Source: Planosporangium thailandense
GTDB taxonomy: Bacteria; Actinomycetota; Actinomycetes; Mycobacteriales; Micromonosporaceae
Length of the DNA: 64,000 nt
Direction: 5' to 3'
Assembly (NCBI RefSeq): GCF_011947195.1
Contig: NZ_JAATVY010000002.1
Span: 1-64,000 of the forward strand
Shown in pieces: positions 8,701 to 23,661 of the stretch. Both the position numbers and the translations under genes were made by a program. The notes under the pieces were generated by a model. That model worked only from the letters and a program-made list of their open reading frames with translations, searched no databases and was not told the DNA's origin. Positions within the stretch are counted from its first letter, which is position 1. Every line of letters starts with the position of its first letter.

Positions 8701-10281
8701 TCAGCGAATGAACTCGGCCGCTTTTGTCGTGATTGGGAGCAGCAACGTCGGCGCAACACCCAGCACCAGCGTCGCGAGAGTACCGATCATGAGCGCCGCG
8801 GACGTCAACGCGCCCGGGATGGACACGGTCGGCGTCGTCTCAGCCGGCTCCGACAGCCACATCAGCACGACCACCCGCAGGTACGGGAAGGCCAGGATCG
8901 CGCTCGACAGGACACCGGCGATCACCAGCCACGCCTGTCCGCCGCTGATGCCCGCCGCGAACACGCCGAACTTCGCGGTGAAGCCGCTGGTGAGCGGGAT
9001 GCCGGCGAAGGCGAGCAGGAGGAACGTGAACACGCTGGCAAGCAGCGGGGAGCGCTTGCCGAGCCCGGCCCACCGCGACAGGTGCGTCGCCTCGCCGTCG
9101 GCGTCACGGACGAGGGTGACGACCCCGAACGCGGCGAGCACGGTGAAGCCGTAGGCGACCAGGTAGAACAGCGAGCTGGACAGGCCGTCCTTGTTCAGCG
9201 CCACGGCGCCGATCAGCAGGTACCCGGCGTTCGCGATGGACGAGTAGGCCAGCAGCCGCTTGATGTCGGTCTGCGTGACCGCCAGGATCGCGCCCACGAG
9301 CATCGTCAGGACCGCGATCGTGCCGATCACCGGCTGGAAGTCCCACTGCGCCCGCTGGAACGCCACGTACAGCACCCGCAGCAGCCCACCGAACGCGGCG
9401 ACCTTCGTGCACGCGGCCATGAGCGCCGTCACCGGCGTCGGCGCGCCCTGGTAGACGTCCGGCGTCCACAGGTGGAACGGCACCGCGGCCGCCTTGAACA
9501 GCAGGCCGATCGCGAGCATCGCGATGCCGACGTACAGCAGGACCGGGCTCATCGACGAGCCGATGATCGCCTGGTCGATGCTCTTGAAGTCGACCCGGCC
9601 GGCGAAGCCGTAGATCATCGCGATGCCGAACAGGAAGAACGCCGAGGCGAACGAGCCGAGAAGGAAGTACTTCATCGCCGCCTCCTGGCTGAGCAGGCGC
9701 CGGCGGCGGGCCAGCGCGCACAGCAGGTACAGCGGCAGCGAGAAGACCTCGAGGGCGACGAACATCGTCAGCAGGTCGTTGGCGGTGGTGAAAAGCATCA
9801 TGCCGCCGAGGGCGAACAGCGTCAGCGGGAAGACCTCGCTGGCGCCCTCCGCCGTGGCGGCCTGCGCCCGGTCGGCCTCGGTGTTGGCGGTCACCGCCGC
9901 CTGCGCCACGAACGGCCCACCGCGCTCCAGCGTGCGCTCACCGATGAGCAGCAGCGCCACGATGCCGAGGACCAGGATCGAACCCTGCAGGAACAGCGAC
10001 GGGCCGTCGACCGCGATGGCGCCGCCCGCGGTGAGGGTCCGCTTGCTCGCCGTCCAGATCACCACGACCAGCGCGGCGACCAGGCCCATCAGGGTCAGCG
10101 GCAGCTGGATGCGGGCCCGGCGGAAACGCCGGAACACGGCCTCCACGAGCACGCCCAGGCACGCGACACCGAACAGGATCAGCATCGGCGCGAGAGCCGC
10201 GTAGTCGATCGGCGGGAGTTGGAACGGCTGGTCCTGCCCTGGCGTCTGGGCCAGCGGTACGAGCGCGTGAACCGGGCTCAC
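8701..10281 (-). CDS. nuoN: NADH-quinone oxidoreductase subunit N
   Basis: Antiporter-like membrane subunit of complex I, one of three homologous proton-pumping modules (with NuoL and NuoM). 526 residues with about 14 hydrophobic helices; the conserved helix stretch FHLWTPDVYQGAPTPVTAL, with a lysine in the preceding LLFKAAAVPF helix, marks the proton channel. GTG start overlaps the nuoM stop (GTGA). Last subunit gene of the operon. Confidence 0.96.
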   Translation of the reverse strand: MSPVHALVPLAQTPGQDQPFQLPPIDYAALAPMLILFGVACLGVLVEAVFRRFRRARIQLPLTLMGLVAALVVVIWTASKRTLTAGGAIAVDGPSLFLQGSILVLGIVALLLIGERTLERGGPFVAQAAVTANTEADRAQAATAEGASEVFPLTLFALGGMMLFTTANDLLTMFVALEVFSLPLYLLCALARRRRLLSQEAAMKYFLLGSFASAFFLFGIAMIYGFAGRVDFKSIDQAIIGSSMSPVLLYVGIAMLAIGLLFKAAAVPFHLWTPDVYQGAPTPVTALMAACTKVAAFGGLLRVLYVAFQRAQWDFQPVIGTIAVLTMLVGAILAVTQTDIKRLLAYSSIANAGYLLIGAVALNKDGLSSSLFYLVAYGFTVLAAFGVVTLVRDADGEATHLSRWAGLGKRSPLLASVFTFLLLAFAGIPLTSGFTAKFGVFAAGISGGQAWLVIAGVLSSAILAFPYLRVVVLMWLSEPAETTPTVSIPGALTSAALMIGTLATLVLGVAPTLLLPITTKAAEFIR

Positions 10282-11813
10282 TTGCCCGCCTCCTTGTTTA
10301 CTGCGACCGCGGTCGGAGCCGGGTCGCTCTTACCGACATCGGAGAGCGTGGCCTTGACCGCCGGGTTGATGACGTCGAGCACCGGCTTCGGATAGAAGCC
10401 GAGAACCAGGATCAGCGCGATCAGCGGGGTGACCACCACGGCCTCCCGCGCCGACAGCCGCCGCTTCATGCCCTCGACCTGCTCGAGAGCGGGGTTCGGG
10501 GTGCCCTGGATGGTGCGCTGGTACATCCACAGCACGTACCCGGCGGCAAGGATGATGCCGAGCGTGGCGATGACGGCCACCGTCTTGTTGACGGTGAACG
10601 TGCCGACCAGCACCAGGAACTCGGACACGAACGGCGAGGTGCCGGGCAGGGCGAGCGAGGCCATGCCGGCGAAGAAGAACACCCCGGCGAGGACCGGCGC
10701 GTACCGGCCGGCGCCGCCGAAGTCGCCGATGAGGGCGCTGCCCCGCCGGGCCACGAGCATGCCGACGACGAGGAACAGCAGGCCGGTGGCGAGGCCGTGG
10801 TTGAACATGTACAGCACCGCTCCGCTGGCCGCCTGCGTGGTGAACGCGAAGATGCCGATGCCGATGAAGCCGAAGTGGGCGATCGACGTGTAGCTGACCA
10901 GGCGCTTCAGGTCCTTCTGGCCGATCGCGAGCAGGGCGGCGTAGACGACGCCGACCAGCGCGAGCGCCATGCCGAGCGGCGCGAAGTACTTCGAGGCGTT
11001 CGGGAACAGCGGCAGGCAGTACCGCAGGATGCCGAAGGTTCCGACCTTGTCCATGACGCCGACGAGCAGGGCCGCCGCACCGGCGGGCGCCGCGCCACCG
11101 GCGTCCGGCAGCCAGGTGTGGAATGGGAAGAACGGCGCCTTGATCGCGAACGCGAGGAAGAAGCCGAGGAACAGCCACCGCTCGGTGCCGGTCGCGAACG
11201 TCGCGTGCCGCAGGGCCTGCCAGTCGAACGTGTGACCGCCGACGACCCACAGCCCCACCACGGCGGCGAGCATGAACAGGCCGCCCGCCAGCGAGTACAG
11301 GAAGAACTTCACCGCCGCGTACTGCCGCTGCTGGCCGCCGTAGGAGCCGATGAGGAAGTACATCGGCACGAGCATGACCTCGAAGAACACGTAGAACAGG
11401 AAGACGTCGGCGGCCGCGAAGACGCCGATCATCGTGCTCTCCAGGAACAGGATCAGCGCGAAGTACAGCGGGACGGACCGGCGGCTGCCCTCCGCGTCGT
11501 GCCAGGAGGCCAGGATCACCAGCGGTACGAGCAGCGCGATCAGCGCGAGCATGACCAGCGCGATGCCGTCGGTGGCGAACGTGAAGCGCACGCCCCACGT
11601 GGGGATCCACGGGTACGACTCGCGGAACTGCATCTGCGGGCCGCCGGCCTTGAAGGCGACCCACATCGCGACGGCCACCGCGAAGACGGCCACCGACCAG
11701 ACGAAGGCCACGCGCTTCACCAGCGCGGGCTTGTCCTTGGGCAGCAGCGCCACGACGAGGCCACCGACGGCCGGTGCGACCGTCAGGACGGACAAAAACG
11801 GAAACGTGCTCAT
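10278..11813 (-). CDS. nuoM: NADH-quinone oxidoreductase subunit M
   Basis: Antiporter-like proton-pumping subunit of complex I, 511 residues with about 14 helices. The channel glutamate lies in FFEVMLVPMYFLIG and the key lysine in AIKAPFFPFHTWLPDA. Its ATG overlaps the stop codon of the upstream micro-ORF (ATGA) instead of nuoL directly, so translation is probably coupled through that micro-ORF. The 3' end overlaps nuoN. Confidence 0.96.
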   Translation of the reverse strand: MSTFPFLSVLTVAPAVGGLVVALLPKDKPALVKRVAFVWSVAVFAVAVAMWVAFKAGGPQMQFRESYPWIPTWGVRFTFATDGIALVMLALIALLVPLVILASWHDAEGSRRSVPLYFALILFLESTMIGVFAAADVFLFYVFFEVMLVPMYFLIGSYGGQQRQYAAVKFFLYSLAGGLFMLAAVVGLWVVGGHTFDWQALRHATFATGTERWLFLGFFLAFAIKAPFFPFHTWLPDAGGAAPAGAAALLVGVMDKVGTFGILRYCLPLFPNASKYFAPLGMALALVGVVYAALLAIGQKDLKRLVSYTSIAHFGFIGIGIFAFTTQAASGAVLYMFNHGLATGLLFLVVGMLVARRGSALIGDFGGAGRYAPVLAGVFFFAGMASLALPGTSPFVSEFLVLVGTFTVNKTVAVIATLGIILAAGYVLWMYQRTIQGTPNPALEQVEGMKRRLSAREAVVVTPLIALILVLGFYPKPVLDVINPAVKATLSDVGKSDPAPTAVAVNKEAGK

Positions 11814-11908
11814 GCCACCGCTCCACCGCTTTTGACAGCACTGCGCTCCGCGGTGCCATGAGGCACAACCGCACTGAGCTTCAAGATTCGCTCGCTACGC
11901 TCACTCAT
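11810..11908 (-). CDS. Micro-ORF between nuoL and nuoM (SERSER element, copy A)
   Basis: A 32-codon frame beginning MSERSERILKLS and ending just inside nuoM. Its ATG (11908-11906) overlaps the nuoL stop as ATGA and its TGA (11812-11810) overlaps the nuoM ATG as ATGA, so it bridges both neighbours without a gap. It is homologous to the micro-ORF between nuoC and nuoD: 18 of the first 25 residues and 54 of the first 75 bases match. I know of no complex I subunit like it. It may be a dispersed repeat that keeps translational coupling, with or without a functional peptide. Confidence 0.55.
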   Translation of the reverse strand: MSERSERILKLSAVVPHGTAERSAVKSGGAVA

Positions 11909-13824
11909 CCGAGCGTCACCGCCAGCATGGCCGCTACCACGAGCAGCGCACCTCCGAGGATCGACATGGCGTACGACCGGACGAAGCCGGTCTGGGTGCG
12001 GCGCAGCCGCCCGGAGCCGCCGCCGACCGCCGCGGCCAGCCCGTTGACCAGGCCGTCGATACCGCGGTTGTCGAGGAAGACGAGCGCACGGGTCAGGTAC
12101 TTGCCGGGCATTTCGAAGACGGCCTCGTTGAAGGCGTCCGTGTACAGGTTGTTGCGGGCGGCCGTGACGACCGGGCCGGCCGGCTGCTCCGCCAGGGCCG
12201 TGCCCTTGCTGAACAGCGCCCAGGCCAGACCCACGCCGGCGAGGGTGACCAGGATGGTGAAGCCGGTGACCCACCAGTTCTCGCCGTGTTCGACCTGCTC
12301 GCCGAAGACCGGGGTCAGCCAGCCGACGACCGAGGTCGCGAGCAGCCCACCGGCGGCGACCGAGCCGACCGCGAGGACGATCAGCGGGATCGTCATGATC
12401 TTCGGCGACTCGTGCGGGTGCTTGACGTCCTCGGTCCAGCGCTTGGGCCCGTGGAAGGTCAGCACGAACAGCCGGGTCATGTAGAACGCGGTCAGACCGG
12501 AGCCGATCAGCGCGGCGGTGCCCAGCACCCAGCCGAGCCAGCCTTCGTGGTGGTAGGCCGCCACGATGATCGGCTCCTTGGTGAAGAAGCCGGACAGCGG
12601 CGGGATACCGATGAGCGCGAGGTACCCGAGGCCCGTCGTCGCCCACGTGATCGGCATGTACTTGCGCAGGCCACCGAAGCGGCGCATGTCGGTCTGGTCG
12701 TTCATGCCGTGCATGACCGAACCGGAGCCGAGGAACAGCCCGGCCTTGAAGAAGCCGTGCGCCAGCAGGTGGATCAGGGCGAGCGCGTACGCGACCCCGC
12801 CCAGGCCGACGCCGAGGAACATGTACCCGATCTGGCTGACCGTCGACCAGGCGAGCACCCGCTTGATGTCGTCCTTGGCGCAGCCGATGACGCAGCCGAT
12901 CAGCAACGTCAGCGCGCCGACGCAGACGACCACCGTCTTCGCCGCGTCCGAGGCGTCGAAGATCGGGTGCGAGCGGGCGATGAGGTACACGCCGGCGGTC
13001 ACCATCGTCGCGGCGTGGATGAGCGCCGACACCGGGGTCGGGCCCTCCATGGCGTCGGGCAGCCACGCCTGCAGCGGGAACTGGCCGGACTTGCCGCACG
13101 CGCCGACGAGCAGAAGGATCGCCACCGCGGTCACCGTGCCGGCCGAGAGCTTGTTGACGTTGTTGAACACCTGGTCGTACTGCACGGTGCCGAGCGAGGC
13201 GAAGAGCAGGAAGATGCCGATCGCGAAGCCCGCGTCACCGACGCGGTTCATCAGGAAGGCCTTCTTGCCGGCCGTGGCCGCCGACGGGCGCAGGTACCAG
13301 AACGAGATGAGCAGGTAGCTGGCGAGGCCCACGCCTTCCCAGCCGAAGTACAGCATCACGTAGTTGTTGCCGAGCACCAGCAGCAGCATGGCCGCGACGA
13401 ACAGGTTGAAGTACCCGAAGAAGCGCCGCCGGCCCGGGTCGTGCTCCATGTACCCGACCGCGTACAGGTGGATCAGGAAGCCCACGCCGGTGATCAGCAG
13501 CACGAACATCGCGGACAGCGGGTCGTACAGCAGGCCGAAGTCGACCCTGAGCCGGCCGACCGGCATGAACTGGAACAGGTTGAGCGACACGCCCTGCCTG
13601 TTGTTCATCCCGTGCAACTGGAAGAAGTAGACCAGGCCGAGCACGAACGCCACGCCGACGCTCGCCACGCCGAGGAGGTGTCCCCACTTGTCGGCCCGAC
13701 GGCCGGCAAGGAGCAGGATCGCGGCGCTGACCAGCGGGATCGCGATGAGTAGCCAGAAGCTGGACAGCGCGCCGCTCGGGGACGCGAAGCTGACCGCTTC
13801 AGCCAACGACGTCGTCGGTTGCAC
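11905..13824 (-). CDS. nuoL: NADH-quinone oxidoreductase subunit L
   Basis: Largest antiporter-like subunit of complex I, 639 residues with about 16 helices. The C-terminal lateral helix that in this subunit runs along the membrane arm is expected after residue 500. Conserved segments include YFGWEGVGLASYLLI (channel Glu), GKSGQFPLQAWLPDAMEGPTPVSALIHAAT (channel Lys, rendered here by its positions, about 240-270) and HLLAHGFFKAGLFL. GTG start 10 bases after nuoK; the stop overlaps the SERSER micro-ORF. Confidence 0.96.
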   Translation of the reverse strand: MQPTTSLAEAVSFASPSGALSSFWLLIAIPLVSAAILLLAGRRADKWGHLLGVASVGVAFVLGLVYFFQLHGMNNRQGVSLNLFQFMPVGRLRVDFGLLYDPLSAMFVLLITGVGFLIHLYAVGYMEHDPGRRRFFGYFNLFVAAMLLLVLGNNYVMLYFGWEGVGLASYLLISFWYLRPSAATAGKKAFLMNRVGDAGFAIGIFLLFASLGTVQYDQVFNNVNKLSAGTVTAVAILLLVGACGKSGQFPLQAWLPDAMEGPTPVSALIHAATMVTAGVYLIARSHPIFDASDAAKTVVVCVGALTLLIGCVIGCAKDDIKRVLAWSTVSQIGYMFLGVGLGGVAYALALIHLLAHGFFKAGLFLGSGSVMHGMNDQTDMRRFGGLRKYMPITWATTGLGYLALIGIPPLSGFFTKEPIIVAAYHHEGWLGWVLGTAALIGSGLTAFYMTRLFVLTFHGPKRWTEDVKHPHESPKIMTIPLIVLAVGSVAAGGLLATSVVGWLTPVFGEQVEHGENWWVTGFTILVTLAGVGLAWALFSKGTALAEQPAGPVVTAARNNLYTDAFNEAVFEMPGKYLTRALVFLDNRGIDGLVNGLAAAVGGGSGRLRRTQTGFVRSYAMSILGGALLVVAAMLAVTLG

Positions 13825-13834
13825 CGGTGCCCTC

Positions 13835-14134
13835 TCAGTACTTCAGCAGGTTGGCGTCGTCAACGCTCGCCGAGCGTCGAGTACGGAAGATCGACATGAT
13901 GATGGCGAGCCCGACCACGACCTCGGCGGCCGCCACGACCATGACGAAGAACGCCATGATCTGGCCGTCGAGGGTGCCGTTGATGCGGCTGAACGTGACG
14001 AGCGCCAGGTTGGCCGCGTTGAGCATCAGTTCGATGCACATGAACAGCACGATGGCGTTGCGCCGGATCAGCACGCCCACGGCGCCGATCGTGAACAGGA
14101 TCGACGACAGGATGATGTAGTTCGTGGCCGTCAC
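13835..14134 (-). CDS. nuoK: NADH-quinone oxidoreductase subunit K
   Basis: Small MrpC-like membrane subunit of complex I, 99 residues and three helices. The two conserved glutamates of the proton path are visible in [17 protein letters not shown] and [14 protein letters not shown]. The start is GTG 14134, overlapping the nuoJ stop as GTGA; the longer frame upstream is out of phase with nuoJ and not coding. Confidence 0.95.
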
Positions 14135-14910
14135 TTTTCCGTACCCTTCGGTGCCGCCTCGGCGGAGGTCAGCTCGCGCGTCGGCAGGATCTTGAAGACG
14201 CTGCGGTCGGTCGGTGTCCCGTCGGGCAGCTTGGCCGGCGTGGCGACCGAGTCGGAGGTGGCGAAGACGCCCGGGCCGGGCTTCGGCGCCGGGTAGCTGC
14301 CCGGCGCGAACCGCTCGCGCATCAGCTCCACCTGGGTCTTGCGGTCTTCCTTGCGCCGCTCGATGTGGGCCAGCAGCATCGCACCGACGGCCGCGGTGAT
14401 GAGCAGCGCCGAGGTGACTTCGAACGCGAAGACGTACCGCGTGAACAGCAGCTCCGCCAGGCCCTGCACGTTGCCGCCGCGCTTGCTGTTGGCGCTGGCC
14501 AGACCGACCGAGTCGACCGTCCCGAGCGCCCGGAACAGGCCGGTCCCCACCAGGCCCGCGAACCCGATGCCGAGGATGATCGCCGCCATCCGCTGGCCGC
14601 GCAGCGTCTCGATCAGCGAGTCCGACGCGTCCCGGCCCACCAGCATGAGCACGAACAGGAACAGCATCATGATCGCGCCGGTGTAGACGATGATCTGCGC
14701 GAAGCCGATGAACGGACCGGCCTGCACGATGTAGAACACGCCCAGGCACATCATCGTCACGACCAGGAACAGCGCCGAGTGCACGGCGTTGCGCGCCGCC
14801 ACCATCCCGATCGCGCAGAGCACGGCGATCGGGGCGAGGATCCAGAAGGCCGTCGCCTCGCCGCCCTTCATCGCGTCCGAGGCCGCGGCGAGGACCAGTT
14901 GCTGGGTCAT
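14131..14910 (-). CDS. nuoJ: NADH-quinone oxidoreductase subunit J
   Basis: Membrane subunit of complex I with five helices in the first 170 or so residues (the conserved third helix holds [19 protein letters not shown]) and a hydrophilic C-terminal tail of about 85 residues that is long for the family and rich in Pro, Lys and Thr. ATG 14910 overlaps the nuoI stop (ATGA). 259 residues. Confidence 0.95.
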
Positions 14911-15512
14911 CACTTCTTCCCCTCGTGCGCGGCCTGCGCCGTCTCGATCTGCGCCGGGAAGTCCGACATCGAGTTGCGGACCCGCTCCGCGCCGGCGGAC
15001 ATGCCGGGGTTGGTCAGCGCCCCGACGTAGTAGTCCTTCTCGGACTCGCCCAGCCGCATCGGGTGCGGCGGCTGCTCCATCCCGGGCAGCAGCGGCGCGA
15101 GCAGCTGCTCCTTGGTGAAGATCAAGTCCTTGCGGTTGTCGCGGGCCAGCTCGTACTCGTTGCTCATGGTCAGTGACCGGGTCGGGCAGGCCTCGATGCA
15201 CAGCCCGCAGAAGATGCAGCGGGCGTAGTTGATCTGGTACGTCGCCGCGTAGCGTTCGCCGGGCGAGTACCGCTCCTCGTCGGTGTTGTTGGCGCCCTCG
15301 ACGTAGATGGCGTCCGCCGGGCAGGCCCACGCGCACAGCTCACAGCCGACGCACTTCTCCAGCCCGTCGGGGTGACGGTTGAGGATGTGCCGGCCGTGGT
15401 AGCGGGGAGCCACCGGCTTGCGCTTCTCGGGGTACTCCTCGGTGACGACCTTCTTGAACATGTGCGAGAAGGTGACGCCGAAGCCCTTCAACGTGCCTGT
15501 GAACGCGCCCAC
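14910..15512 (-). CDS. nuoI: NADH-quinone oxidoreductase subunit I
   Basis: Ferredoxin-like subunit carrying the two 4Fe-4S clusters N6a and N6b that pass electrons to NuoB. The two C-x2-C-x2-C-x3-C motifs are complete: Cys54/57/60/64 and Cys99/102/105/109. The 200-residue protein has a C-terminal extension of about 60 residues past the last cluster. GTG start, 3 bases after the nuoH stop. Confidence 0.96.
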
Positions 15513-15515
15513 GAC

Positions 15516-16892
15516 TTATCGGCCTTCCTGCTCGGTGGCGCTGGAGTCGCCGCCCGCGGAGCCGACGGGTACCGGCTCGCGTTCGGCGGTGAGCCTCGGG
15601 GCCCGCGGGCTCGGCGGGACCTCGAGGTTCAGCGGTGGTACGGGGAAGCCCTCGGCGCCGCCCACGCGTCCGGCCGGGTCGAGACCCTCCAGGCCGGTGG
15701 GTGTCGCCGGCTTCTCCTTGGCCGGCCACAGGACCCAGACGGCCCCGAGCACCACGATCACGGCGGCCGCGATGAACAGCTTGATGTTGGTCTCCAGGCT
15801 GGCCCGCTGCAGGGTGCGCAGGCCGGACAGGACCAGGATCCACACCAGGTTGATCGGGATGAGGGCCTTCCAGCCGAACCGCATGAACTGGTCGTAGCGC
15901 AGCCGGGGCAGGGTGCCGCGCAGCCACACGAAGACGAACAGCAGGAGCAGCACCTTGATGGTGAACCACAGCACCGGCCACCAGCCGGAGTTGGCGCCCG
16001 CCCACACCGTCGTGATCGGCGCGGGGGCCCGCCAGCCGCCGAGGAACAGCGTCGTGCACAGGCCGGAGACGGTGACCATGTTGATGTACTCGGCGAGGAA
16101 GAACATCGCGAACTTGAACGACGAGTACTCGGTGTGGAAGCCACCGACCAGCTCCGACTCGGCCTCGGGGAGGTCGAACGGGGCCCGGTTGGTCTCACCG
16201 ACCGCGGAGACGAAGTAGATCAGGAAGCTGGGGATCAGCAGGATCGCGTACCAGCTCGGCCCGGTGGTGTGCCAGCCGAACAGGTTGATCGCGTTGCCGT
16301 GCGCCTGCGCGTCGACGATCTCGCTGGTCGACATGCTGCCGGACTCGACGAAGACCGCCACGATCGACAGGCCCATCGCGACCTCGTACGAGATCATCTG
16401 GGCGCTCGAACGCAGACCGCCGAGCAGCGGGTACGTGGAGCCCGAGGCCCAGCCGGCCAGCACCACGCCGTACACGCCCATCGACGAGCAGGCGAGGATC
16501 AGCAGGACAGCGACCGGGACGTCGGTCAGCTGGATCGGCGAGTGGTGGCCGAACCATGACACGCTCGGACCCAGCGGCATCACCGCGAAGGCGGTGAAGG
16601 CGCAGGTCGCGGAGATGACCGGGGCGATGAAGTACACCACCTTGTCGGCCATCTTCGGGATGATCTCTTCCTTGAGCCCCAGCTTGAGGCCGTCGGCGAG
16701 CGACTGCAGCAGACCGAACGGGCCGTTGCGGTTGGGGCCCGGGCGGTGCTGCATGTACGCGACGACCCGGCGTTCGTACCAGATGGTGAACAGGGTCATC
16801 ACCACGAGGAACGCGAAGATGCCGACGATCTTGACGAGAACCAGCCACCACGGGTCGTGGCCGAACTGGTCCAGTGAGCCGGCTGCGAGCAT
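15516..16892 (-). CDS. nuoH: NADH-quinone oxidoreductase subunit H
   Basis: Eight-helix subunit that joins the hydrophilic and membrane arms of complex I and forms the quinone channel. The signature loop [20 protein letters not shown] and the [17 protein letters not shown]-type loop (here beginning [12 protein letters not shown]) are intact. ATG 16892 overlaps the nuoG stop. 458 residues, with an extra Pro-rich hydrophilic C-terminal tail of about 70 residues common in actinobacteria. Confidence 0.96.
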
Positions 16893-19312
16893 CACTCGGC
16901 ACCTCCTGTACTGATCTCGACCTGGGCGCCTGCGGTCACGCCGAGCGTGCGGCGGACCGTGGAGCCGGTCGAGTTGGTCGGCACCCACACCACGCCGTCG
17001 ACCATGTCGTCGACGAGCAGGGCCGGGAGCGTGATCGCGCCCTGGGCGGAGCGGACGGTGACGGGGTCACCGTCGGCCAGGGCGAGGCCGCTCGCGGTCG
17101 CCTTCGACAGCGCGGCCACCACCGGCCGGGCGGTGCCGGCCAGGTACTCGTCGCCGTCCTGCAGCGAACCGAGGTCGAGCAGCTGGTGCCAGGTCGCGAG
17201 GACGGCCCGGCCGGAGCCGGCTGCCGGTACGGAGACCTCCGCGGGCGCCACGCGCGGCGGCGCGGGCTGCTCGACCCGGGTGTTCGCGAGGGCGGCGAGC
17301 TGGCGGCGCACCTCGACCACGTCGCCGCAGCCGAGCTGGATGCCCATGTCGGCGGCGAGCGCGTCGAGCACGCGGGCGTCGCTCATCGCGGCCGTGCGCA
17401 GGACGGCGTCGAACGGGCGGATCCGCCCCTCCCAGTCGACGTAGGCCCCGGCCTTCTCCACGGCGGGAGCGATCGGGAAGACCACGTCGGCGCGCTCGGC
17501 CACCGCGGTGCGGCGAAGCTCGATGCTGACCAGGAAACCGACCCGGTCGAGCGCCTCGTCCGCGACCGCCGGCTGCGCCAGGTCGCCGGGGTCGACACCC
17601 GCGACGACCAGACCGGCCAGCGCGCCACTGTGCGCCGCCGCGATGATCGCGTCGGCGTCCTTGCCCGGCAGGCTCGGCAGCGTGCCCGGCTCGAGGTCCC
17701 AGGCCTGGGCCAGCTCGGCCCGGGCGCCGGTGTCGGCGACCGGACGGGCGCCGGGCAGCAGGTTGGGCAGGCAGCCGGCCTCCACCGCACCCCGGTCGCC
17801 GGCGCGACGCGGCACCCAGGCCAGCCGCGCGCCGGTCTCAGCCGCGAGCTTGGCGGCGGCCGACAGGCCACCGGGCACCTCGGCGAGCCGCTCACCGACG
17901 AACAGGATCGCACCGGGCTCGCTGAGCGCGGTGCGGACCGCGGCGCTCTCGAGGAGGGCCTCTGCCTCGGTACCAGGGACGGTCGGCAGCACGGTGGCGC
18001 CGAACTTCGCATACCCCCGGGTGGTGAACGGGGCGATCGCGATGGACCGCAGCTTGTTCTTGCGCCACGCCTTGCGCAGCCGCAGGAACAGGATCGGGCA
18101 CTCCTCTTCGGGCTCCAGGCCGACGATCACCGCGGCCGGGGCCTCCTCGACCTCGGCGTAGGTGACCTCGACCCGGCCGGCGACGGAGCTGGCCAGGAAC
18201 GCCGTCTCCTCGGCCGACAGCGGGCGGGCCCGGAAGTCGATGTCGTTGGTGCCCAGGGCGAGGCGGGCGAACTTGGAGTACGCGTACGCGTCCTCGACGG
18301 TGAGCCGGCCGCCGGTGAGGACGCCGACACCGCCGTTGTCGCGGGCCCGGGCGAGCCCCTCGGCCGCCACGCTCAGCGCCTCCGGCCAGCTCGCCTCGCG
18401 CAGCTCACCGGTCTTGGCGTCACGCACCAGCGGCACCGTGATCCGGTCGAACGCGTTGGCGTACTGGAAGCCCCAGCGCCCCTTGTCGCAGCTCCACTCC
18501 TCGTTGACCTGCGGGTCGTCGCCGGCCAGCCGCCGCATCACCTTGCCGCGGCGGTGGTCGGCGCGCATCGCGCAGCCGGCCGAGCAGTGCTCGCACACGC
18601 TCGGCGTGGAGACCAGGTCGAACGGCCGGGCGCGGAAGCGGTACTGCGCGCCGGTCAGCGCGCCGACCGGGCAGATCTGCACGGTGTTGCCGGAGAAGTA
18701 CGAGTTGAACGGCTCGTCCGCCGCCTCCTCGTCCCCGTTGAAGATGCCGATCTGCTCCGCCGCGCCGCGCTCCATCAGGTCGATGAACTTGTCGCCGGCG
18801 ATCTCCTCGGAGAACCGGGTGCAGCGCTGGCACAGCACGCACCGCTCCCGGTCCAGGAGCACCTGCGACGAGATGGCCAGGGGCTTTTCGTACTCGCGCT
18901 TGTGCTCGTGGAAACGCGACTCGGGCCGGCCGGCGGACATCGCCTGGTTCTGCAGCGGGCACTCGCCGCCCTTGTCGCACATGGGGCAGTCGAGAGGGTG
19001 GTTGATCAGGAGGAACTCCATGATCCCCTCTTGCGCCTTCTTGGCGACGTCGGAGGTGAGCTGGGTCTTGACGACCATGCCGTCGGCCACGGTCTGGGTA
19101 CACGAGGCGACCGGCTTGCGCTGCCCCTCCACCTCGACCAGGCACTGCCGGCAGGCACCGGCCGGCGCCAGCAGCGGATGGTCGCAGAAGCGCGGGATCG
19201 CGATGCCCATCTGCTCGGCGACCCGGATCAGCAGCGCGCCCTTGGGCGCCTCCACCTCGATCCCGTCGATCGTCAGCTTGACGGTCTCAGTGGGTTTCTC
19301 CACGGAGGTCAT
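16892..19312 (-). CDS. nuoG: NADH-quinone oxidoreductase subunit G
   Basis: Iron-sulfur subunit of the NADH dehydrogenase arm, 806 residues. The N-terminal domain binds one 2Fe-2S cluster (Cys43, 54, 57, 71), then an unusual His/Cys 4Fe-4S site (His105, Cys109, 112, 118) and a further 4Fe-4S site in [13 protein letters not shown] with its fourth Cys in [10 protein letters not shown] molybdopterin-type domain follows with another 4Fe-4S-like motif (CEHCSAGC), the extra N7-type site found in part of the family. Directly abuts nuoF with no gap. Confidence 0.96.
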
Positions 19313-20625
<1,313 letters not shown>

Positions 20626-20629
<4 letters not shown>

Positions 20630-21420
20630 TTGGACTCCTTACCAACCGTCGGCGCATCGCCAGCGGGCTTACCGTCAGAGGCCGGCTTCGGCGCCGCGGG
20701 CGGCACCGAGTTACCGGGGCCGGCGCCCTTGTCGTCGCGGCGGGCGATCGGGGTGTTCGGGTCGAAGCCCGGCACCGAGACGCCGAAGCGCTCCGCCAGC
20801 CGGCTGCCGGCGAGGGTCGGCTCACCGGCCGGCCCCTCCCCGACCGCGCCGTCGCGGTCCTCGCTCCAGCCGGCCAGCTGCAGCTCGGCCTCCTTGAACG
20901 TGCAGAGCCGCGGGCCGCGCGTGGGCTGCGGGCGTTCGCCGTTCTCGAGCTGCTTGACGATCCCCAGCGCCTGGTCGGCGTCGATCTTGTCGAAGAACTC
21001 GTAGTTGACCGTCATGACCGGCGCGTAGTCGCAGGCTGCGAGGCACTCCGCGTGCTCCAGCGTGATCCGGCCGTCCTCGGTCGTCTCGTCGTGGCCCACG
21101 CCCAGGTGCTCGCTGAGCGCCTGGTACGCCTTGTCGCCGCCGAGCACGCCACACATCGTGTTGGTGCACACGCTGACCAGCCAGTCACCGACCGGCCGGC
21201 GCTTGTACATCGTGTAGAAGGTGGCGACCGCCGCGACCTGGGCCTTCGTGATGCCCAGCATCTCGGCGCAGAACGCCATGCCCTCCGGCGAGACGTACCC
21301 CTCGACCGACTGCACGAGGTGCAGCATCGGCAGCAGGGCCGAGCGTTCCCGGCCGGCCGGGTAACGGGCCATGATCGCCCGGGCGCGCTCGCGGGTCTCT
21401 TCGGTAAAGATGTCGCTCAT
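20626..21420 (-). CDS. nuoE: NADH-quinone oxidoreductase subunit E
   Basis: Thioredoxin-fold subunit holding the 2Fe-2S cluster N1a, ligated by Cys85, Cys90, Cys126 and Cys130. The core is about 185 residues; a further 80-residue tail rich in Pro, Gly and Lys is longer than usual and probably disordered. ATG 21420 overlaps the nuoD stop (ATGA). Confidence 0.96.
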
Positions 21421-22739
21421 CGGTCACATCCACCCATCACGGGGTCCAGCGAAGCGCCGCCGGCGATGACGTCGGCGATCAGGGCACCCTCGGCCATCGC
21501 GGGGATGGCCTGGAGGTTGACGAAGCTGGGCTCCCGGTAGTGCACCCGGTACGGCCGGGTGCCGCCGTCGGAAACGGCGTGCACCCCCAGCTCGCCGCGG
21601 GGCGCTTCGATCTGTACGTACACCTGGCCGGCCGGCACCCGGAAGCCCTCCGTCACCAGCTTGAAGTGGTGGATGAGGGACTCCATCGACTGGCCCATGA
21701 TCTTGGCGACGTGCTCGAGCGAGTTGCCCATGCCGTCGACCCCGATGGCCAGCTGCGCCGGCCAGGCGATCTTTCGGTCGGCCACCATCACCGGGCCGGG
21801 CTCGAGCCGGTCCATGGCCTGCTGGACGATGCGCAGGCTCTGCCGCATCTCGTTCAGCCGGACCTGGTAGCGGCCCCACACGTCGGCGTCGGTGCTGGTC
21901 ACCACGTCGAAGTCGTAGGTCTCGTAGCCCGCGTACGGCATGGTCTTTCGCAGGTCCCACGGCAGGCCCGCCGAGCGCAGCACCGGACCGGTGACGCCGA
22001 GCGCCAGGCAACCGGCGACGTCGAGGACGGCCACCCCCTGGGTCCGCTCCTGCCAGACCTTGTTGCCGGACAGCAGGTCCTCGTACATGTCGATCCGCTT
22101 CGGCATGAACTGCAGGAGGTCGCGGATCCGGGCGATCGCCTCGTCCGGCAGGTCCTGCGCCAGCCCGCCCGGCCGGATGTACGCGTTGTTCATGCGCAGT
22201 CCGGAGGCGAGCTCGAAGATGTCGAGGATGTACTCCCGCTCGCGGAAGCCGTAGATCATCATCGACAGCGCGCCCAGCTCCATGCCGGTCGTCGCGAGCC
22301 ACACCAGGTGCGACGAGATCCGGTTGAGCTCCATCATCAGGATCCGGATCGTCTTGGCCCGGTCCGGGATCTGGTCCTCGATGCGCAGCAGCTTCTCCAC
22401 CGCGAAGGCGTACCCGGCCTCGTTGAACAGCGGAGCCAGGTAGTCCATCCGCGTGACGAACGTGGTGCCCTGCGTCCAGTTGCGGAACTCGAGGTTCTTC
22501 TCGATCCCGGTGTGCAGGTACCCGATGACCAGGCGGCACTCTTTGACCGTCTCGCCCTCGAGCTCGAGGATCAGCCGGAGCACGCCGTGGGTCGACGGGT
22601 GCTGCGGACCCATGTTGACGACGATCCGCTCGTCGGACAGCGGGTCGGCGCCGCTGACGACGTCGTCCCAGTCGCCACCGGTGACGGTGAAGACCTTGCC
22701 TTCGGTCGTTTCACGCGCGCTCGCGTAATCAGTACTCAT
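21417..22739 (-). CDS. nuoD: NADH-quinone oxidoreductase subunit D
   Basis: 49-kDa-type subunit that with NuoB forms the quinone-binding pocket; related to the large subunit of NiFe hydrogenases but without metal ligands. Conserved [20 protein letters not shown] near the N-terminus carries the quinone-site His. 440 residues. The ATG overlaps the stop of the nuoC-nuoD micro-ORF (ATGA), so the usual nuoC-nuoD junction has been replaced by an inserted, coupled frame. Confidence 0.97.
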
Positions 22740-22819
22740 GCCGTCACCTCGCTTCGCTCGGCGCCGTCATGAGGCACCGAGACACTGAGCTTGCTGGTTC
22801 GCTCGCTCCGCTCGCTCAC
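22736..22819 (-). CDS. Micro-ORF between nuoC and nuoD (SERSER element, copy B)
   Basis: A 27-codon frame starting [12 protein letters not shown]. Its GTG (22819-22817) overlaps the nuoC stop as GTGA and its TGA (22738-22736) overlaps the nuoD ATG as ATGA. It is homologous to the micro-ORF between nuoL and nuoM. Both begin with the repetitive coding of Ser-Glu-Arg from GAGCGnAGCGAG units and share VPH and AERS in the second half. Independent presence at two junctions of one operon, always in perfect overlap, is striking; whether the peptide matters is unknown. Confidence 0.55.
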
Positions 22820-23661
22820 TGGTAGCTCCTGCGCTGGTCGGGCGGCGGGATCTCGGCGCCCTTGTACTCGACGGGCACGCCACCCAGCGGGTAGTCCTTG
22901 CGCTGCGGGTGGCCCTCCCAGTCGTCCGGCATGAGGATCCGGGTCAGGTTGGGGTGGCCGTCGAAGACGATGCCGAACATGTCGTAGGTCTCCCGCTCCT
23001 GCCAGTCGGCCGTCGGGTAGACGCTGGTCACGCTCGGCAGGTGCGGGTTCTCGGCCGGCACCGCGGCTTCGAGCCGGATGCGGCGGCGGTAGGTCATCGA
23101 GGTCAGCTGGTAGACCGCGTGCAGGCGCCGGGCGTCCGCGCCGAGGTAGTCCACGCCGGAGACCGACGAGCACAGCTCGAACCGCAGCGCCGGGTCGTCG
23201 CGCAGGGCCTGGGCCACCTCGGCGATCCGCTCGGGCTTGACGTGGAGCGTCAGCTCGCCCCGGTCGACGATGACCTTCTCGATCGCGTCGTGGAAGCCGG
23301 CGTACGCGGCCTCGAGGGCGTCGACGACCTCGTCGAAGTAGCCACCGTACGGGCGCGGGGTGTCGAGCGCGACGCTGCGGCGACGGACGAGGCCGCCGAA
23401 CCCGGAGGTGTCTCCGGAGCCGCTGACGCCGAACATGCCGACCCCGGCCAGGGTCGCCGGCGGGTAGTCGGCCGGCGCGCCGGTGTAGGCGCCCTCCGGC
23501 TCCGCCGCGACCGGCACGGCCCCGTCGCCGCCGGGAACGTCGACCACCGGCTTCACGCCCGCCGGCCCGCCCGCGGCCGGGCTGGCCTCTTCGATGTTGG
23601 ACCGGGTGACGGCGTCCGGGTCGCTCGTCGGACGGTGACCGCCGGGGTTCGCCTGGCTCAC
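22816..23661 (-). CDS. nuoC: NADH-quinone oxidoreductase subunit C
   Basis: 30-kDa-type subunit of the peripheral arm. The conserved core occupies about residues 120-275 (signature [38 protein letters not shown], positions about 220-258). The first 110 residues are a Pro/Gly/Ala-rich extension that makes the protein longer (281 residues) than usual. GTG start overlaps the nuoB stop; the stop overlaps the SERSER micro-ORF. Confidence 0.95.

Follow-up and report, generated by a model that had tools for sequence, protein, structure and literature searches.

Two short open reading frames (ORFs) lie between genes of the nuo operon in a 64,000-nt stretch of the Planosporangium thailandense genome (contig C27, positions 1 to 64,000; hereafter the window). 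The findings of the present study suggest, with a probability that we put at nearly four in five, that each of these micro-ORFs is a copy of a mobile, non-autonomous mini-element that settles at start codons and hands ribosomes on to the gene that follows. The dispersal of the element, its presence or absence from site to site, its preserved frame, its Shine-Dalgarno motif, the compensatory changes in its hairpin and the RTGAGY sequence at its junction (R, A or G; Y, C or T) are all observed in the sequences compared.

Micro-ORF 1 (11908..11810, minus strand, 99 nt, 32 codons), which encodes MSERSERILKLSAVVPHGTAERSAVKSGGAVA followed by a stop codon, is found at the nuoL/nuoM junction, and micro-ORF 2 (22819..22736, minus strand, 84 nt, 27 codons) at the nuoC/nuoD junction. 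The former opens on ATGA and the latter on GTGA at the stop codon of the upstream gene, and both close on the ATGA of the next gene. When the sequence was re-read, both frames were present with the stop-start overlaps described in the initial annotation, and the matches that it had counted between them, 18 of 25 residues and 54 of 75 bases, proved exact. The runner-up among ungapped 75-base placements, with both strands of the window considered, gives 39 matches versus 54 for the pair, and the resemblance is more than chance because the family is found genome-wide. R1, a sequence-only model built from 17 copies of this genome, recovers the copies at 11810..11908 (61.6 bits, E 3.3e-18) and 22736..22819 (77.7 bits, E 3.2e-23), and only two other matches, of 7.2 and 5.7 bits, were found in the window. 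Taken by itself, GAGCGnAGCGAG is weak evidence, because the eight window matches with at most one mismatch compare with 4.9 expected by chance, and 12 of 100 shuffles were as high. Rfam covariance models gave no match at the gathering score in positions 11500-23100.

Distribution of the element among genomes and sites

The genome containing the window (G000) is a 7.0-Mb draft in 114 contigs with 98.5% completeness, and 27 copies of 45-129 nt, the nuo pair included, were catalogued in it. A few of the shortest are degenerate, and such copies (for example, C38c and C19c) are counted among the 27, while right-end-only, partial or weak matches such as C2:160825, the third C38 unit, L046, L047 and L070-L073 are left out. 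The element is mostly 84, 81 or 78 nt long, RTGA is found at the left end of 26 copies (that of C45 reads ATGC) and at the right end of all 27, and tandem copies exist at C1, C19, C23 and C38. The copy at C20 (L060) and the second C38 unit (L037) are interrupted by an additional sequence, palindrome-like and about 45-48 nt long, and yet stay in frame (129 and 126 nt, respectively).

A search of this genome and other Micromonosporaceae, as proposed in the initial annotation, found further copies: R1 matches 84 of the 121 genomes of the host family, own included, in 31 of 44 genera, where at most 37 candidates were scored per genome and high per-genome counts are lower bounds. An R1-type search at E 1e-5 under stricter limits matched at least 4 of 396 genomes in a phylum-wide sample, again including our own. 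A second model, R2, for which genome G365 supplied nine copies and our own genome four, matches 26 of the 301 genomes of family f8, and 23 of those 26 belong to genus g57, which is probably Nocardia. An exact scan with the 24-base left end returned at least 120 stretches, and the 80 named loci listed include members of Micromonospora, Planosporangium, Plantactinospora, Phytohabitans, Catellatospora, Nocardia, Nonomuraea, Microbispora, Kitasatospora, Streptomyces, Nocardioides and Aeromicrobium. The outside copies used below are 109 taken as the best of a longer R1 list, 108 of which were resolved; later ones and those at contig ends are left out, and L225, whose right end reads CACGA, is uncounted. 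In 12 outside copies the downstream ORF is short; nine of these copies are followed by a full unit, two (L189 and L236) by a partial or altered unit and one (L190) by none. An 84-nt copy gave no match in phage and plasmid collections. No description of the family was found in literature titles and the starts of abstracts, a search mostly outside subscription journals, where the family may be published; both left-end strings occur together in one of the listed papers, an unrelated one on cancer, and MSERSER in two on plant barcoding.

Comparison with three congeners (G022, G053 and G073) revealed that the sites are variably occupied. The nuoL/nuoM junction is a single ATGA in G022 and G073 and holds a 78-nt copy of another subfamily in G053, and an 84-nt copy is found there in G012, a member of another genus. 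The nuoC/nuoD junction is a single GTGA in G053 and G073 and holds a 78-nt copy in G022. Different subfamilies occupy one site in two cases, nuoC/nuoD (G000 versus G022) and nuoL/nuoM (G000 versus G053), which argues for at least one gain or replacement. Twelve more sites of our genome were compared with the same congeners and nine gave matches, making 11 comparable sites together with the nuo pair; at 10 of the 11, at least one congener has an empty site with a single RTGA, where the empty state of C38a in G073 and of C60 in G053 was read from the sequence with only one flank aligned. Site C19 is filled in every congener where it is readable, and C82a, C45 and C82b had no match in the three congeners. 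At sites that read GTGA when empty (nuoC/nuoD and C1, as well as C71 and C29a in two of the three congeners), G is found at the left end of the filled copy and, except in C71, A at its right end, as if the element landed 3' of RTGA and brought its own ATGA. These empty sites, the catalogue and the outside copies support the proposal in the initial annotation that a dispersed element enters operon junctions while keeping the stop-start overlap on both sides.

Several other repeats were noticed at the same kinds of sites. The nuoC/nuoD junction of a genome from another family (G131; L131) holds an unrelated array of four ATGA-opened repeats, MSTDDALLAAESA followed by a stop codon, spaced at 38 nt before the nuoD start, with the same stop-start grammar as the element and a different sequence. 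At the same junction in G007 (L124) and G011 (L129), the tail of nuoC seems to be repeated before the nuoD start, and a different process may therefore also produce short, identically overlapping repeats at this place. At the gpsA start of G022 (L422) there is a different in-frame micro-ORF of 57 nt, running from GTGAGCC to ATGA and encoding VSLHDQQSAAVRGGRNEQ followed by a stop codon, where our genome has the element in tandem. Copies also precede a start of the form MSVRR..GTEVEYG, presumably dop, in G032 (L165), G103 (L082), G028 (L078) and at C23 of our genome (L041), possibly a recurrent site across three genera (g1, g28 and g32).

Frame, ribosome-binding motif and hairpin

A length divisible by three together with an open frame was found in 26 of our 27 copies and 105 of the 108 resolved outside copies (131/135). 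Of the 135 copies, 41 are not 84 nt long, and 37 of these 41 are in frame, where one in three would be expected without constraint. The same tendency was seen in named loci picked by the left end alone (n = 87). In frame 0, RTGA is reached within 180 nt in 76 loci and then opens an ORF of at least 80 codons in 65, compared with 15 and 9, respectively, in the +2 frame, the only control used because the +1 frame trivially starts on the TGA itself. Among the 11 misses, eight continue in frame into the downstream ORF, one has RTGA at 192 nt, one has TTGA and one meets the contig end. At L325 (Nocardia colli), L263, L312, L317, L284 and L301, the left end is in frame with the downstream ORF, which gains an MSERSER N-terminal extension; such extensions possibly represent exaptation or misannotated starts, and we take the gene at L325 to be aroB.

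The right end bears a ribosome-binding motif at a fixed distance. Of the 135 copies, 129 have GAGG or GGAG ahead of the right start, 123 of them at exactly 7 nt, compared with 9.7% of random positions and 22 of 113 control junctions. In the window the motif is GGAG at 11821..11824, 7 nt before the nuoM start, and GAGG at 22747..22750, 7 nt before the nuoD start, both on the minus strand.

The new start is also buried in a hairpin that shows strong compensatory change. Six copies were folded, and in five of them an inner CUCAU arm pairs with the start codon at the right end. In copy 1 the inner arm, CTCATGGCACCGC, lies at 11850..11862 and the outer arm, GCGGTGGCATGAG, at 11809..11821, as found by RNA folding and by an inverted-repeat search (13 nt, 92% complementary). 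In copy 2 the arms are CTCATGACGGCGC at 22761..22773 (element positions 47-59), found by RNA folding and a pair-change test, and GTGACGGCATGAG at 22735..22747 (positions 73-85), within an inverted repeat, 22735-22748/22760-22773, that is 79% complementary. All four arms are on the minus strand, and the outer arms take in the start codon of nuoM or nuoD together with one base of the host gene. Inverted-repeat searches of three copies recovered the same arms, the inner one against the right end, together with one overlapping palindrome.

When 41 copies of 84 nt from other genomes were compared without gaps, the 13-pair helix formed in 90.2% of cells, versus at most 51.4% in slid versions; 10 of the 13 pairs had changed on both sides, and none of 500 shuffles reached any of five measures. 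Swapping arms among the 135 copies gave no more than 8.2 pairs in 200 swaps, against 9.2 in the true combinations. When pair 53-79, which is mostly unpaired, is set aside, G.U occurs in 60 cells and A.C in 10 over 94 copies, with 78 cells unpaired, an excess that fits folding of the sense strand.

Beyond the DNA itself, the residues show little conservation. Among 94 distinct copies of 84 nt, the entropy by codon position is 0.73/0.85/0.86, with little periodicity, and the synonymous fraction is 0.335, compared with 0.258 expected. Different frames read the CTCAG core, namely frame 0 in 59 of the 84-nt copies and frame 2 in seven of the 78-nt copies; the count uses CTCAG only, since another search word had made the frame-1 class partly an artefact. 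In copy C82b, indels compensate each other.

Target junction and neighboring genes

The genes flanking the micro-ORFs are all on the minus strand, and a Pfam search identified them as complex I subunits of the NuoL, NuoM, NuoC and NuoD types. nuoL (11905..13824; PF00361 and PF00662) ends with a TGA inside the ATGA that opens micro-ORF 1, and the start codon of nuoM (10278..11813; PF00361) is the right end of that copy. Likewise, nuoC (22816..23661; PF00329) ends with a TGA inside the GTGA that opens micro-ORF 2, and the start codon of nuoD (21417..22739; PF00346) is its right end.

Long ORFs are found on both sides of 69 of the 108 outside copies, compared with 7.6% of 1542 control RTGA sites. 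In 89 of 96 copies, the two bases after the right-hand RTGA are GC or GT, versus 10 of 117 control junctions. RTGAGY may be either required by the element or supplied by it; several empty sites of congeners read RTGAC or RTGAA. The initial annotation had asked whether copies always sit at gene junctions with overlaps on both sides, and overlap with a long upstream ORF was indeed found in 78 of the 108 outside copies, but "always" does not hold for the other 30. A long downstream ORF is opened by 27 of those 30, and some of these we take to be the starts of genes such as dop and gpsA. In a metagenome-assembled genome of Geodermatophilaceae (L287), the right end reads TTGA, apparently providing a gene that is presumably YebC-like with a TTG start, so non-RTG starts may occur. 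The hairpin that masks the start, the built-in Shine-Dalgarno motif, the RTGAGY junction and the mycobacterial precedent discussed below go beyond the initial annotation.

Proposed ribosome relay, alternatives and relation to known repeats

The element sits at start codons, at RTGAG[C/T], mostly where the start overlaps the stop of the preceding gene, and it both begins and finishes with RTGA. After insertion, the old start codon would open the micro-ORF, which is the only gene that the copies carry, and the right end would supply the next gene with a new start, nearly always ATGA, preceded at 7 nt by GAGG or GGAG and concealed by the hairpin. On the simplest account, a ribosome that finishes the upstream gene would then restart in the micro-ORF, open the hairpin as it reads on, halt at the terminal TGA and restart on the next gene. 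The element contains every piece needed for such a relay, and the interrupted operon probably remains readable. Presumably the micro-ORF is translated and the next gene needs it for its expression, and the element is inferred to move actively.

Some of the observations weigh against this relay. Three of the 108 outside copies and one of our 27 are out of frame and yet persist, and many of the compared copies are related, so the frame and pair counts, being counts of sequences, do not represent independent events throughout. Left starts have a Shine-Dalgarno motif in only 80 of 135 copies, and the lack of a long upstream ORF in 30 of the 108 outside copies means that coupling to an upstream gene is not universal. 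As for the hairpin, the sixth folded copy, C71, pairs its start with bases other than the inner arm, and fold z-scores are weak in two of six copies (-0.59 for nuoC/nuoD and -0.72 for C71; the best is -3.15). RNAalifold gave no convincing structure for 17 mixed copies of our genome, a result that probably reflects the pooling of two subfamilies that differ in spacing. In C38a and C49 the left R does not copy the target, with C60 mixed, and precise loss via short direct repeats could possibly also leave an empty-looking site.

The likeliest alternative, which we nevertheless consider rather unlikely, is that the element is a selfish and neutral repeat that spreads by transposition and is purged wherever else it inserts, its frame only avoiding harm to the host and its hairpin serving mobility. 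No copy-specific function is evident, the occupied sites differ between congeners, and several bacterial mini-elements have hairpins at their ends, all of which would agree with such a repeat. A Shine-Dalgarno motif fixed at 7 nt, however, has no obvious role in mobility, and the tolerance of G.U favors a folded sense strand, such as a transcript, although a single sense DNA strand is also compatible. Moreover, of the 30 copies that lack a long upstream ORF and are perhaps recent, 28 keep the frame.

It seems improbable that the element is a leader or attenuator controlling the ratios of complex I subunits. The place inside the nuo operon and the start-masking hairpin would suit it, but congeners have the same nuo junctions without the element, and the same element precedes many unrelated genes, which from their N-terminal letters we take to be trpA, gpsA, dop, aroK, pstA and a ferredoxin of a suf operon. 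More improbable still is a true family of micro-proteins placed between operon genes, a suggestion of the initial annotation that is weakened by the poor conservation of residues within a preserved frame. The recurring residues MSERSER..AERSE and the small synonymous excess speak for it, whereas the weak periodicity of entropy, the shift of the CTCAG core between frames in copies of 84 and 78 nt and the compensating indels of C82b speak against it. Local duplication within the nuo operon, with no mobile family, would account for a pair of copies that lie about 10.9 kb from each other in the same operon, but has next to no chance of being correct in view of the 25 further catalogued copies in our genome and the many in other genera; the catalogue and the family-wide R1 matches rule it out. 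Insertion of a ribosome-relaying mini-element remains the preferred explanation. A bolder extension of it, which we regard as doubtful, is that the inner arm CTCAT acts as a built-in guide by pairing with RTGAG of the site, host G included. A single hairpin might then both pick the target and restrict the next start to ribosomes that have read the micro-ORF, and the mycobacterial repeats described next might be one branch of such a relay.

Mycobacterial interspersed repetitive units (MIRUs), which reportedly go back to Supply et al. in 1997, insert at DTGA (D, A, G or T) within TGA overlaps. In passages of a 2025 review (PMC12548453), they are described as repeats that are short and mobile and that, by inserting at start codons, place an internal ORF in coupling at -4 nt, and this kind of element is therefore already known. 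Elsewhere, in passages of PMC3914561, they measure 46-101 bp, occupy 41 loci in M. tuberculosis, sometimes in tandem, and are a standard for typing tuberculosis strains, while a passage of a 2009 paper (PMC2734929) calls their exact function not well understood. The present element similarly is a short repeat at many chromosomal loci, some of them tandem (27 copies of 45-129 nt), has an internal ORF overlapping the upstream stop and the downstream start by 4 nt, and lies at start codons in TGA overlaps that are empty in relatives (10 of 11 comparable sites). It differs in its hosts, which are Micromonosporaceae, Nocardia and other actinobacteria; the RTGAGY hexamer, the compensatory start-masking hairpin and the fixed Shine-Dalgarno motif are features of this element, the MIRU being compared by description only. 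The passages of PMC2734929, PMC4213456, PMC3635867, PMC3914561 and PMC12065434 gave no nucleotide letters of a MIRU, primer C3 for senX3-regX3 (from a passage of PMC3916065) matched none of 396 genomes of genus g51, and R2 at E 1e-4 with restricted scoring matched no g51 genome in the 301-genome sample of f8. Overall, the element is best read as genuine, widespread, mobile and MIRU-like, with a relay anatomy that is conserved, and it is in anatomy that the likeness lies.

Other known repeats agree less well. Like repetitive extragenic palindromes (REPs) and REPINs, which are moved by REP-associated tyrosine transposases (RAYTs), the element is short, dispersed and non-autonomous and has a hairpin; REPs lie outside genes and are not known to have a conserved ORF coupled to a neighbor. 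The RAYT domain Y1_Tnp (PF01797) is present in 33 of the 121 family genomes but was not found in our 98.5% complete draft or in G022, despite 27 catalogued copies and 26 R1 matches, respectively, and a RAYT was rejected as the mover in our genome for lack of this domain. Miniature inverted-repeat transposable elements (MITEs) of DNA transposons are likewise short and non-autonomous, with a short direct repeat at their flanks. Unlike in MITEs, no terminal inverted repeats of at least 8 nt were detected in three copies scanned, in which the long inverted repeat joins the inner arm and the right end. Rickettsia palindromic elements and enterobacterial repetitive intergenic consensus (ERIC)-type repeats are mobile and insert in frame inside coding regions. 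The element resembles them as a mobile repeat kept open in frame, but it lies at gene starts, handing over at RTGA.

For genome annotation, micro-ORFs at RTGA junctions and MSERSER N-terminal extensions may derive from this element. The occurrence of MIRU look-alikes in non-mycobacterial actinobacteria, with presence and absence among congeners, would make the function and the spread of such repeats testable outside a pathogen. If the relay is true, a DNA element would have evolved to enter essential operons at little cost by carrying with it a reading frame, a ribosome site and a hairpin that masks the start.

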